Under the pieces are notes generated by a model, which searched no databases, was not told the DNA's origin, and saw only the letters and a list, made by a program, of their open reading frames with translations. A DNA stretch of 64,000 bases from Paracoccus spongiarum. GTDB taxonomy: Bacteria; Pseudomonadota; Alphaproteobacteria; Rhodobacterales; Rhodobacteraceae. The stretch lies in the NCBI RefSeq assembly GCF_030732095.1, contig NZ_JAVAMQ010000008.1:1-64000 (forward strand), in the 5' to 3' direction. The translations under genes and the position numbers were made by a program. Within the stretch, counting starts at the first letter, position 1. The number at the start of each line of letters is the position of its first letter. Shown here one piece after another: positions 1,972 to 14,589 of this stretch.

Positions 1972-2579
1972 GGCGCAAGGCTCCGGGTGGCGGCGATCCA
2001 GTCCCGGCAGCGCGCCTCGGGCTGCGGGGCCATCGCGATGTCGGTGACGACGGCGGCGCTGTCTGCACCGGCGGCGAACAGGGCGGGCAGCCTCTCGGGC
2101 GTGACGCCGCCGATGCCGACCAGCGGCACCGGCCCGGCAAGACGCTTCCACGCGCGGACCCGCGCAAGCCCCTGCGGCGCCCAGGCCATCCTCTTCAGCC
2201 GCGTGGGCCAGACCGGCCCAAGCGCCACATAGGCGGGCCGATGCGACAGCGCGCGGTCCAGTTCGGCCCCGTCATGGGTCGAGAGGCCGAAGGCGATGCC
2301 GGCGCGGCGCAGGGCCGCGAAATCCGCGCCGTCCATGTCTTCCTGCCCCAGATGGACCGCCTCGCAGCCCAGATCCAGGGCGATGCGCCAGTGATCGTTC
2401 ACCACAAGCAGCGTGCCATGAGCGCGGCACAGGTCGCGCGCCCGAGCGATCTGGCGGCGCAACTCGGGCTCGGGCAGGTCCTTGGCGCGCAGCTGGATCA
2501 GCCGCAGGCCAAGCGGCAGCAGCCGCGCCAGAAGGTCCACGCCGCCGACGATCGGATAGAACGGGTCCAGCCTCATCAC
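1968..2579 (-). CDS. thiE: Thiamine-phosphate synthase ThiE
   Basis: Joins HMP pyrophosphate to thiazole phosphate to make thiamine phosphate. The 203-aa TIM-barrel shows IQLRAKDL, the [12 protein letters not shown] loop, the AVHLGQEDM pyrophosphate/Mg loop and the phosphate-binding GIGGVTPE. The start is GTG at 2579, overlapping the thiG stop as GTGA; an ATG three bases further in would serve equally. It lies between thiG and thiF with overlaps at both ends, so translational coupling is likely. Confidence 0.9.
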
Positions 2580-3334
2580 CCCAGCCGCGCCATGCCGAGG
2601 ACCGGGGTCGAGGGCACCGCCATGTCGCGCGGCGGCATCAGGCCCGCCTCATGTGCAAGGCGCCCCGCCTCGACCGCCTGTCCGAAGGCCCGCGCCATGC
2701 CGACCGGGTCCAGCGCGCGGGCGACCGCCGTGTTCAGCAGCACCGCGTCGAAGCCCATCTCCATCGCTCGCATCGCCTGGCTGGGGGCGCCGATGCCCGC
2801 ATCGATCACCAGCGGCACATCGGGGAAATGCGCCCGCATCGCCCGCAATGCCTCGGCATGGCGCAGCCCCTGCCCCGATCCGATCGGCGCGCCCCAGGGC
2901 ATCAGCACGCGGCAGCCGGCCTCGACCAGCCTTTCGCCAAGGATCAGGTCCTCGGTCATGTAGGGGAAGACCTCGAACCCCTCGGCGCACAGGACCCGCG
3001 CCGCCTCGAGCAGCGCGAAGGGATCGGGCTGGAGGCTGTCGGCATGGCCGATCACCTCCAGCTTGATCCACCCGGTGCCCAGCAATTCGCGTGCCATGCG
3101 GGCGGTGGTGATCGCCTCGGCGGCGCTGTGACAGCCGGCCGTGTTGGGCAGCAGCCGGCAGCCCGAGGCCCGCAGGAGGTCGCGGAACCCCGCACCCTCG
3201 CCGCCCTCGCGGCGCAGCGACAGGGTGATGATGCCCGCGCCCGAGGCCGCGATGGCGTCGCGCAGCAGCGCGGGCGAGGGGTAGCCCGCCGTGCCCAGCA
3301 TCAGGCGCGAGGCCGGTGTGAAGCCGTAGAACAT
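2576..3334 (-). CDS. thiG: Thiazole synthase ThiG
   Basis: Forms the thiazole phosphate from deoxyxylulose phosphate, glycine-derived imine and ThiS-thiocarboxylate. The 252-aa (beta/alpha)8 protein has the catalytic lysine in the WIKLEVIGH motif, LLPNTAGC near the N-terminus, the [12 protein letters not shown] loop and the [10 protein letters not shown] phosphate loop, all typical of ThiG at the usual length. It follows thiS directly, with its ATG abutting the thiS stop codon. Confidence 0.95.
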
Positions 3335-12312: not shown

Positions 12313-12603
12313 TCAGTCGTCGTCATCATTGCCATCATCGCCGTCGTCATCATGGTCCCATCGGCCGCGCCCCCGGCGGTCGCCACCATCGTCATCGTCG
12401 TCGCGGCCGTGCCGGTAGCCATCGTCATCCTCGCCCTGCCAGCCGCGCAGGCGGTATCCGCCGTCCCGGACCGAATGGCCGGTCAGGATATGGCCGTTGA
12501 TGATCCGCAGCAGCCGGTCGACATCCGCCTGCGCGGGCGCCGGCGCGGTGGTGATCGCGGCCAGCACGAGGCCCGCCGCCGTGAGGGTTTTCAGACACTG
12601 CAT
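12313..12603 (-). CDS. Small exported Asp/Gly/His-rich protein, unknown
   Basis: A 96-aa protein with a signal peptide (residues 1-26, cleaved after PAQA) and an N-terminal mature part of about 30 residues (DVDRLLRIINGHILTG). The rest is low-complexity: runs of Asp with Gly, Arg and His (EDDDGYRHGRDDDDDGG). Such a tail could bind metal ions in the periplasm, but that is inference. A similar layout (a short conserved stub plus an acidic tail) occurs in several RcnB-like or PepSY-like exported proteins, but no domain is clear. It stands alone, ahead of the DCC gene. Confidence 0.6.
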   Translation of the reverse strand: MQCLKTLTAAGLVLAAITTAPAPAQADVDRLLRIINGHILTGHSVRDGGYRLRGWQGEDDDGYRHGRDDDDDGGDRRGRGRWDHDDDGDDGNDDDD

Positions 12604-12667: not shown

Positions 12668-13072
12668 CTATTCCCGGTCCGGCGCGGTTCCGGCCGGCCC
12701 AGAGATGGGCGGCCTGCCGGAAAGGCGCAGAAACAGCCGCCTGCCCCGCGCCAGCAGCGGATAGACCCGCGCGGCACGGCGGGGCGACAAAAACAGCCGT
12801 CGCTGCAACCCGTTCAACAGCCCCGCGGGTCCCGACAACACCGCCAGCAGATGCACCGCCTCGGGGCCGTGGAACTGCCGGCCCTGCCAGATCGCGACCA
12901 TCCCCGCATCAAGGTCCAGCCCCGAACGCAGCGCCGCGGCGACACGCGGATCGCCGCCGCGCGCATCCAGCAATGCGACCGGGCCGACCGTCTCGCGCAG
13001 CCGCATCATCGCAACATAGGAGGCGCAGAAAGGGCATTGCCCGTCATAGATGATCGTGATGCCCTTGGTCAT
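12668..13072 (-). CDS. DCC-family thiol-disulfide oxidoreductase-like protein
   Basis: A 134-aa protein (COG3011/DUF393) with the defining DxxCxxC motif near the N-terminus (IYDGQCPFCASYV), a short thioredoxin-like core and an arginine-rich C-terminus. The CxxC suggests dithiol chemistry. An upstream start would add 64 residues of no family similarity, so the ATG at 13072 is chosen. It is divergent from the HTTM/VKGC-like gene at 13165, 92 bases away. DCC and HTTM domains are known to occur together, which supports a functional pair. Confidence 0.8.
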   Translation of the reverse strand: MTKGITIIYDGQCPFCASYVAMMRLRETVGPVALLDARGGDPRVAAALRSGLDLDAGMVAIWQGRQFHGPEAVHLLAVLSGPAGLLNGLQRRLFLSPRRAARVYPLLARGRRLFLRLSGRPPISGPAGTAPDRE

Positions 13073-13164
13073 GACCCCCAGATGTTCGATTGCGCCGGTC
13101 GCAGGAATAACGTGCCACGCCACGCGCAATTCCACGGGCAGGCAGGAAAGGAGGATCGTCGGAA

Positions 13165-14589
13165 ATGAGGTTCGGGGCAATCGCCGCATCGCTGGCCGGG
13201 CGGGCGTCGGCGACGCTGTCGCAGCCGGTGTCGGGGGTGTCGCTGGCGATGGTGCGCATCGCACTTGGCGCGCTGCTGGCCTGGGACTGCTGGCGCTTCA
13301 TCCGTCACGACCGGGTCTTCCGCTACTGGGTCGAGCCAGATTTCCACTTTGCCTATGGGGGCTTCGGCTGGGTGACGCCCTTGCCGCCGCCCTGGATCCA
13401 TGCGGCGTGGCTGGCGATGGGCCTTGCCGCCATCCTGGTGATGCTGGGGCTGTTCTATCGCGTCGCGATCGTCGTGCTGACACTGCTGTTCGGCTACTTC
13501 TTCCTGCTCGACAAGGCCGAGTATCTGAACCACTTCTACCTCGTCATCCTGTTGCTGATGCTGATGTGCGTCCTGCCGGCCCATCGCACCCTGTCCCTGG
13601 ACGCGCGCTTTCGTCCGGCGCTGCGCGGCGCGCAGGTGCCCTATGCCGCGGTGTTCATCCTGCGCGCCCAGATGGAGATCATGCTGGTCTTTGCCGGTCT
13701 CGCGAAGCTGACGCCCGACTGGCTGGCGGGCGAGCCTCTGGGCCTGTGGCTGCGGGATCGGGCGGGCGGGTTTCCCCTGGGCTTCCTGTTTCAGCATGAC
13801 GCGGCGATCATCGCGGCCGCCTGGGGAACCACCGCGCTGCATCTGATCGGCGCCACCCTGCTGCTGTGGCGGCGCAGCCGGCTTGCGATCTTCGCGGTCT
13901 ACTACGTCTTTCACGCCGCGAACGCGATCCTGTTCAACATCGGCATCTTTCCCTGGCTGACCATCGCCGCGACCACCATCTTCTTTTCCCCCGACTGGCC
14001 GCGCCGTGCAGCCCGCCGGCTGATGGCCTGGTTCAGGCCGGTCCCCCCGCATCAGCCGCCGCCCCCAGCCGCGCCGCGAAGGCTGCCGGCGGTCGCCCTG
14101 CTGGCCATGGCTGCCTGGATCGCGGTCCAGCTGGCGCTGCCGCTGCGGGCGGCAATCTTTGCAAGCGACCTGCGGTGGAGCGGCGAGGGACACCGTTTCT
14201 CGTGGCGGATGCGCCTCCATGACCGTCAGGCCGACGGGGTGTTCGTCGTCACCTCGGACGAACAGGAATGGACCGTCCGGCCCACCGACTACCTGACCGC
14301 GCGACAGGCCGGCAAGATGCTGGTGCGTCCGGACATGATCCACCAGTTCGCCGGGCATCTGGAAGCGGTGTGGCGGGATGCGGGGCATGGCGACGTCGCA
14401 GTGCGCGCGGCGATCCGCAAATCGCTGAACGGGCGGCCCGCGCAGGCCTTCGTGGACCCGACCGTCGACCTGACCGCGATTGCCCGGTCGCCGCTGGCGG
14501 GCGATCCCTGGATCCTGCCTCTCAGGCATCCGGTCTGGGGCGTGGTCGACAACCGCGCCTTGCGATCGCCCGTCGGCATCCGGCCCTGA
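13165..14589 (+). CDS. HTTM / vitamin K-dependent gamma-carboxylase-like membrane protein
   Basis: A 474-aa protein with several membrane segments in its first 300 residues and a soluble C-terminal domain. FHFAYGGFGWVTPLPPP (61-77) and FFLLDKAEYLNHFYL (112-126) closely follow the corresponding blocks of animal gamma-glutamyl carboxylase, and Lys117 falls where the catalytic lysine of that enzyme sits. GHRFSWRMRL in the C-terminal part matches a further VKGC block. It may therefore use a reduced quinone to carboxylate or epoxidise something, but bacterial members have no settled function. Start ATG follows AAAGGAGG. Confidence 0.8.
   Translation: MRFGAIAASLAGRASATLSQPVSGVSLAMVRIALGALLAWDCWRFIRHDRVFRYWVEPDFHFAYGGFGWVTPLPPPWIHAAWLAMGLAAILVMLGLFYRVAIVVLTLLFGYFFLLDKAEYLNHFYLVILLLMLMCVLPAHRTLSLDARFRPALRGAQVPYAAVFILRAQMEIMLVFAGLAKLTPDWLAGEPLGLWLRDRAGGFPLGFLFQHDAAIIAAAWGTTALHLIGATLLLWRRSRLAIFAVYYVFHAANAILFNIGIFPWLTIAATTIFFSPDWPRRAARRLMAWFRPVPPHQPPPPAAPRRLPAVALLAMAAWIAVQLALPLRAAIFASDLRWSGEGHRFSWRMRLHDRQADGVFVVTSDEQEWTVRPTDYLTARQAGKMLVRPDMIHQFAGHLEAVWRDAGHGDVAVRAAIRKSLNGRPAQAFVDPTVDLTAIARSPLAGDPWILPLRHPVWGVVDNRALRSPVGIRP

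Follow-up and report, generated by a model that had tools for sequence, protein, structure and literature searches.

We report that a bacterial relative of human GGCX, encoded in the first 64,000 nucleotides of contig NZ_JAVAMQ010000008.1 of Paracoccus spongiarum (this whole stretch is called the window), is genetically linked both to a DCC dithiol protein and to a small secreted Asp-repeat protein, and that genes of the latter kind are concentrated beside the genes of its homologues. Neither the enzyme family nor DCC is new; what we found in none of the open-access literature searched is their shared linkage to secreted proteins with Asp repeats. As the best explanation overall we propose, tentatively and at rather less than even probability, that a quinol-driven carboxylase modifies the Asp-repeat proteins, with DCC as its redox partner. 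The elements of the window that enter this argument are as follows.

12313 to 12603, reverse strand: small secreted Asp-repeat protein of 96 residues with C-terminus GNDDDD, candidate substrate (signal peptide by a crude rule)
12668 to 13072, reverse strand: DCC1-like dithiol protein of 134 residues with a DGQCPFC motif, divergent from the carboxylase (Pfam PF04134, 4e-9)
13073 to 13164, no strand: divergent intergenic region of 92 bp between DCC and carboxylase, delimited by the two start codons
13165 to 14589, forward strand: HTTM/VKGC carboxylase-like membrane protein of 474 residues (Pfam, GGCX match, structure model)

The homologous loci come from a scan of genome contigs for relatives of the carboxylase, of which the best 80 of 120 were kept. 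Around these genes we counted open reading frames (ORFs) that have a signal peptide by the crude rule and at least two DDDD runs, which we call D-run ORFs. Proteases of the S8 family (19 of the 60 D-run ORFs) are excluded from the final count, since their Asp-run N-terminus is also present on plasmids that do not match the carboxylase. In the 272 kb of DNA that lie no more than 1.8 kb from the carboxylase there are 38 non-S8 D-run ORFs, drawn from 34 of the 80 loci and from the window; farther off, there are none in the 162 kb lying at 1.8-3 kb and three in the 640 kb beyond. Most of the loci that enter the count are related alphaproteobacteria. Control DNA, composed of 620 kb of the window's own genome, 580 kb of other carriers and 1,390 kb of three carboxylase-less genomes (G023, 590 kb, no match; G003, 400 kb, one; G055, 400 kb, none), yields two such ORFs in 2,590 kb. 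One of these is phage-terminase-like by eye, and the other, in G003, is a PepSY-like protein with two D runs.

Secreted ORFs with two EEEE runs number zero both near the carboxylase and in control DNA, as against 48 with two DDDD runs within 3 kb (S8 proteases included). Ser runs are slightly enriched near the carboxylase (6 in 428 kb, versus 3 in 2,000 kb of control) and Gly runs number 3 and 3 in the same amounts of DNA, so that the enrichment of either lies far below that of Asp. Codons and substitutions suggest that the D-run ORFs encode genuine proteins whose amino-acid sequence is under selection. GAT and GAC are mixed inside the runs in 58 of 58 D-run ORFs (S8 included), and the ratio of nonsynonymous to synonymous substitution rates (dN/dS) is 0.12-0.38 over 15 D-run ORF comparisons, some of which pair differing N-terminal types; these comparisons derive from 11 locus pairs, the pair L056/L021 falling below the identity filter. 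DDDD forms the C-terminus of 29 of the 35 D-run ORFs shorter than 260 residues.

The N-termini that carry the Asp runs are unrelated to one another: among ten proteins scanned they are EF-hand-like (below the Pfam cut-off), PepSY_2, collagen or of no recognised type. In 18 loci including the window, DCC is followed directly by a D-repeat gene in the same orientation, with gaps of 38-386 nt; in seven the two genes converge. The window's own copy, which the original prediction does not mention, is the only ORF with two DDDD runs in the 64 kb. It is read in the direction of DCC, its ATG lies 64 nt past the DCC stop codon and is preceded by AGGAG, and its product consists of a predicted signal peptide, a short segment of helix-like character and a tail of Asp and Arg. 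Pfam assigns it no family, and a tblastn search with its first 64 residues finds similar neighbours at other loci, mostly with weak E-values. In three loci a D-rich secreted ORF precedes the carboxylase frame in the same orientation, ending 66 nt before it in a member of the Nitrospinae (L058), 161 nt before it in L064, the tree neighbour of L058, and 17 nt before it in a member of the Anaerolineae (L065), whose D-rich protein ends in GNDDDDDDDD; in a planctomycete (L079) the D-repeat ORF is interrupted by the contig end. A Paracoccus albus plasmid (NZ_CP115776) carries genes for HTTM, DUF393, a 'hypothetical' EF-hand-like D-repeat protein, an S8 peptidase and a sigma factor. When plasmids were searched with the EF-hand-type N-terminus, this carboxylase-bearing plasmid was the sole match; the window's Asp-repeat protein matched no plasmid, and the PepSY type matched three records, of which two were examined, one having an NDES-type tail and the other no acidic tail.

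We think it slightly favoured that the Asp-repeat proteins are substrates of the carboxylase. Several observations weigh against this link. The D-run criterion was chosen after the window ORF and the first matches were known. No nearby non-S8 D-run ORF is present in 46 of the 81 stretches, some of them cut by contig ends, and the Granulosicoccaceae loci belong to this group; the Bacteroidota plasmid homologues L107-L109 have neither a [DE]GxCxxC ORF nor a DDDD ORF in the stretch. Asp runs also occur in S8 proteases encoded on plasmids of P. denitrificans, Tritonibacter, Rhizobium and Sinorhizobium for which no carboxylase match was obtained, in a search that covered plasmids only. Since such S8 proteins and the PepSY-like protein of G003 exist, Asp runs do not need the enzyme. 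The median net charge of the lumenal domain is -3.5 in D-run-linked enzymes versus +1 in the others, and we therefore rejected a simple electrostatic attraction between this domain and the Asp runs. Finally, DCC and D-run labels show no significant co-variation on the carboxylase tree (8 independent pairs, median p 0.5), on which there are 11 changes of the D-run label and 10 of the DCC label; L046 was excluded from this tree, and the D-run label of L008 and L079 was assigned manually, though the final scan did not count these two loci.

These points bear on another account, in which the true target of the enzyme, a quinol oxygenase/epoxidase or carboxylase of GGCX type, is unlinked or not a protein; the D-repeat proteins would then be secreted Ca2+ binders that are co-regulated or co-transferred and not substrates. 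Three things speak for it: the many stretches that have no nearby D-repeat ORF, the S8 and PepSY-like proteins that bear Asp runs with no carboxylase linked to them, and the altered activity reported for the Leptospira orthologue. It fits poorly with the steepness of the D-run enrichment within 1.8 kb, and with the recurrence in several phyla of one type of Asp tail on differing N-terminal domains. We regard it as a real but minority possibility, of perhaps a third of our belief.

The S8 proteases merit separate description. They form a secreted, subtilisin-like family in which the Asp-run stretch directly follows the signal peptide, with or without a carboxylase on the record, and in annotated plasmids the S8 gene adjoins a gene for a sigma factor of the extracytoplasmic function (ECF) type. 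We find them at L004, L005, L006, L009-L014, L016, L017, L019, L021, L022, L025, L030, L039, L040, L056, L106 (1652-3034), L190-L193 and L195-L197. The Asp-run N-terminus is present in seven of eight comparison plasmid stretches, none of them on a carboxylase-matching plasmid; in the eighth, L194, the analysis stopped short of the S8 N-terminus. The S8 protease was accordingly rejected as a carboxylase-specific substrate. On the P. albus plasmid (L106) the S8 peptidase at 2240-3037 is likely annotated too short, the open frame with its Asp run beginning at 1652, and the 'hypothetical protein' PAF20_RS16740 at 1769-2206 is an antisense reading of that run and a likely misannotation.

The original prediction described a 474-residue membrane protein that keeps the blocks FHFAYGGFGWV and FFLLDKAEYLNHFYL; both are present in ORF 13165-14589, whose ATG is preceded by GGAGG, as read from the sequence. 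Pfam finds HTTM at residues 20-278 (7.1e-76) and VKGC_lumenal_dom at residues 311-454 (5.6e-36), both above their gathering scores, while NCBIfam has no family for this protein or for the DCC protein. With phmmer, residues 15-454 align to native human GGCX residues 52-506 (E 2.5e-36), and the solved relatives detected by sequence are GGCX entries only (8 distinct sequences). The comparison of a predicted structure with GGCX, proposed with the original prediction, recovers the GGCX fold. An AlphaFold2 model built from 67 sequences has a pLDDT (predicted local distance difference test) of 95.2 and a pTM (predicted template modelling score) of 0.91; Foldseek matches it to 16 GGCX chains at E <= 4.5e-12, with the next chain at 0.96, and VIA-align gives Z of 26.9-30.7 for 15 GGCX entries and 21.9 for the 16th, with the first unrelated chain at 8.1. 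We conclude that window positions 13165-14589 encode a true GGCX relative with a GGCX-like predicted fold.

Residues were compared over 79 homologues, that is, the 80 loci minus L046, whose gene is split over two frames. Three codon positions are of particular relevance.

13513 to 13515, forward strand: Lys117 codon, counterpart of human K154, not catalytic (GGCX alignment; 79 homologues)
13528 to 13533, forward strand: Asn122 and His123 codons, counterparts of human N159 and H160 (each in 79 of 79 homologues)
13705 to 13707, forward strand: Lys181 codon, counterpart of the human catalytic base K218 (alignment; Lys in 79 of 79 homologues)

Lys117 had been placed at the position of the animal catalytic lysine, and this assignment does not hold. 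The GGCX alignment is gapless from Lys117 to beyond Lys181 and pairs the former with K154 and the latter with K218. According to PMC12589487, K218 is the base of human GGCX, K154 forms hydrogen bonds with D442/Q446 where the domains meet, and K217 takes part in coupling. Position 117 is Lys in only 21 of the homologues (Gln in 28, Arg in 17). We therefore reject Lys117 as the catalytic lysine; the loss of conservation that was to count against the prediction is seen at this residue and is absent at Lys181. The correction allows mutants to be placed at the right residue.

Besides K181, N122 and H123, the residues D185, F249, N253, F257, F262 and M349 are invariant (79/79 each), and W186 is kept in 78/79; in human numbering, the invariant positions include K218, N159, H160, F286, N290, F294, F299 and M401. 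The same source places F286, F294, F299, H160, V210, M401 and W223 around the quinone ring, and N159, H160 and Y395 around the Glu side chain. The ring-pocket equivalents F286, F294, F299 and M401 are each conserved in 79/79 and W223 in 78/79. The positions of the Glu pocket and of coupling are altered: Y395 is replaced by His in 78/79, N158 by Leu in 79/79 and K217 by Val or Ala in 79/79. The M402 equivalent, which like Y395 and N158 belongs to the surroundings of the human Glu pocket, is Arg or Lys in 78/79, and that of C99 is Phe or Leu in 79/79. We count the changes around the Glu pocket in favour of our proposal.

Invariance of K218, H160, N159 and the ring pocket would suit an ordinary Glu gamma-carboxylase that acts, as in animals, on Glu residues of unlinked secreted proteins. 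We consider this improbable, since Y395, N158 and K217 are altered in nearly all homologues, the sequence stops near human residue 506-524 with the later C-terminal part missing, no secreted ORFs with Glu runs lie nearby, and the host's own genome has no detected vitamin K route or VKOR.

That genome (99.9% complete) contains no detectable VKOR (PF07884) or MqnA/D (PF02621); its best menD score (TIGR00173) is 66.9 bits, below the cut-off of 244.2, and it has a proteobacterial, ubiquinone-type UbiA above cut-off. The quinone of the proposed couple would therefore more likely be ubiquinone than vitamin K. We surveyed the genomes of 50 of the 80 loci, a hand-picked set with many metagenome assemblies of unstated completeness, and found above cut-off menD in 3, MqnA/D in 9 and VKOR in 6. 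Neither naphthoquinone marker is detected in 38 of the 50, all of which have UbiA above cut-off; together with the window's own genome, UbiA passes in 40 of 51. The conserved ring pocket would most likely take ubiquinol in hosts without naphthoquinone markers, and we would give ubiquinol an even chance of being the cofactor. By eye, no VKOR-like gene is recognised near the carboxylase in L077, the sole locus viewed by coordinates.

The divergent neighbour, for which a DxxCxxC motif had been predicted, is a DCC1-like protein carrying DGQCPFC. Its likelier start is the ATG at 13072, which gives 134 residues, and not a GTG that would give 198; the DCC match begins at residue 7. PF04134 scores 38.1 bits against a cut-off of 27.8, this is the only PF04134 match found in the genome, and D10, C13 and C16 are invariant in 47 aligned sequences. 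Sequence comparison with solved structures gives no relative (one chance-level match, E 2). The model (pLDDT 82.9) has a best Foldseek E of 0.032 and no match at or below 0.001, many of the top matches being of thioredoxin or glutaredoxin types.

Co-occurrence of the two genes, another check that had been proposed, is borne out. A profile that takes the window's DCC as its seed finds DCC next to the carboxylase in 52 of 80 loci, and a broader profile raises this to 58 of 80 (among these 58, L070 has a DCC neighbour without the DGxCxxC form of the motif). The arrangement is co-directional, with DCC downstream, in 11 loci (L034, L036, L049, L051, L053, L054, L055, L058, L064, L074 and L079) and divergent in the remaining ones. 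Among 149 genomes drawn from the same family, 5 have PF22777 (G000 included) and 94 have PF04134; in each of the five, a divergent PF04134 match shares the contig with the PF22777 match, at a distance of 1.0-1.2 kb. When 398 genomes were drawn from the phylum, one more carrier appeared, G381, whose DCC is likewise divergent. Thus five of five other carrier genomes, drawn without regard to DCC, have DCC beside the carboxylase. With 35.9-45.0 bits, the linked DCCs account for five of the seven lowest scores among the PF04134 matches listed in the 149 genomes, which suggests that they form a subgroup. DCC is a specific partner of the carboxylase, yet DCCs are common without the enzyme.

What DCC does for the enzyme is harder to say. 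A role as redox recycler is doubtful in our view, at about a third; DCC proteins have no clear signal peptide by eye, and the active site of the carboxylase is expected to be periplasmic. It is nearly an even matter whether DCC instead has a cytoplasmic role, such as in thiol status or in expression of the cassette, and this would be compatible with the best explanation. Alongside the lack of a clear signal peptide, a cytoplasmic role agrees with the frequency of DCC in genomes without the carboxylase and with the 22 of 80 loci that have no adjacent DCC. It sits less well with an adjacency that persists across several arrangements and lineages, and with the distribution of VKOR, found in 1 of the 30 carriers whose carboxylase adjoins a DCC gene and in 5 of the 20 others (p 0.03, kinship ignored). 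Naphthoquinone markers occur in 4 of 30 versus 8 of 20 of the same carriers (p 0.04, kinship again ignored).

Our proposal of a quinol-driven carboxylase acting on Asp-repeat proteins may be stated as a mechanism. The HTTM/VKGC enzyme, DCC and the Asp-repeat protein would form a three-gene cassette that modifies exported proteins, the first being a GGCX-type carboxylase. By homology, its active site very probably faces the periplasm, and the loop charges, judged by eye, agree with the human topology. Lys181 would deprotonate a quinol of the membrane, in this host most likely ubiquinol; oxygen would convert the deprotonated quinol into a strong base, which would remove a proton from the substrate side chain, to which CO2 would add. 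The putative substrates are the linked secreted proteins with DDDD(D)G repeats, often with DDDD at the end, whose tails would be carboxylated repeatedly. If these are the substrates, then the product would be beta-carboxyaspartate rather than gamma-carboxyglutamate (Gla), giving dense Ca2+-binding tails. That Asp is the residue carboxylated we rate just short of even; in synthetic peptides, weak carboxylation of Asp by the mammalian carboxylase has been reported (McTigue et al. 1984). The DCC dithiol protein would supply or recycle reducing power in the stead of VKOR and may regenerate the reduced quinone, a step that is the weakest of the mechanism because DCC is probably cytoplasmic. The full conjunction, a ubiquinol-driven GGCX-family enzyme that uses DCC for VKOR and turns poly-Asp into beta-carboxyaspartate, with animal Gla as the Glu-using branch of a wider family, is in our estimate unlikely.

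The linkage gives the enzyme family a concrete candidate substrate class, and its tightness makes the substrate question testable in cultured bacteria. If the proposal is true, bacterial protein chemistry would gain an additional amino-acid modification, and GGCX chemistry would be shown not to require vitamin K or VKOR, with a bearing on the origin of animal gamma-carboxylation.

The predicted fold resembles human GGCX, aligning over 437-459 residues in most entries. The bacterial protein differs from it in having about 26% identity, no equivalents of K217, Y395 and N158, no C99-C450 pair, no part after about human residue 524, and a host without detected vitamin K or VKOR genes. Linked D-repeat proteins are, like animal Gla proteins, secreted and have clustered acidic residues; unlike them, they have runs of Asp instead of Glu, often C-terminal, and unrelated N-terminal domains with no common propeptide seen. 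We know of no established substrate for bacterial GGCX relatives. The Leptospira enzyme differs at the catalytic lysine. This orthologue is reported to show altered activity and no normal protein carboxylation (Rishavy et al. 2005). Like it and other bacterial HTTM/VKGC proteins, the window protein has HTTM and a lumenal domain; the Leptospira gene is mentioned in PMC4555120. The window's DCC shares the PF04134 match and DxxCxxC with DCC1-like/DUF393 thiol-disulfide oxidoreductases, from which the carboxylase-linked DCCs differ as a low-scoring subgroup among the matches listed. In the titles and abstracts listed by searches of an open-access library we found nothing linking bacterial VKGC proteins to Asp-rich proteins or DCC, which is not proof of absence.

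Several further loci deserve mention. In a metagenome-assembled genome labelled Nitrosopumilus (L070; 7431-9356, 13660-14343), the carboxylase is accompanied by a divergent weak DCC match and futalosine-pathway genes, and a secreted protein ending in DDDDDD lies 4.3 kb from the carboxylase. The Granulosicoccaceae loci L061, L068, L069, L071, L078 and L081 have a large secreted vWA/PilY1-like protein (by eye) on the opposite strand, whose gene adjoins the carboxylase in five of the six; it is a possible alternative substrate. L107, L108 and L109 are large plasmids of Bernardetia and Persicobacter with homologues of 29-32% identity.

The PF22777 gene is patchy in distribution, turning up in 5 of the 149 genomes of the family and in 2 of the 398 of the phylum, with G000 counted each time. 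The Paracoccus carboxylases cluster with those of Roseivivax and Salipiger, among others, and some of the branches concerned have weak support; together these findings hint at horizontal transfer of the cassette. In Paracoccus sp. DMF-8 (L046, 7422-9388) the carboxylase gene extends over two overlapping frames, by frameshift or assembly error.

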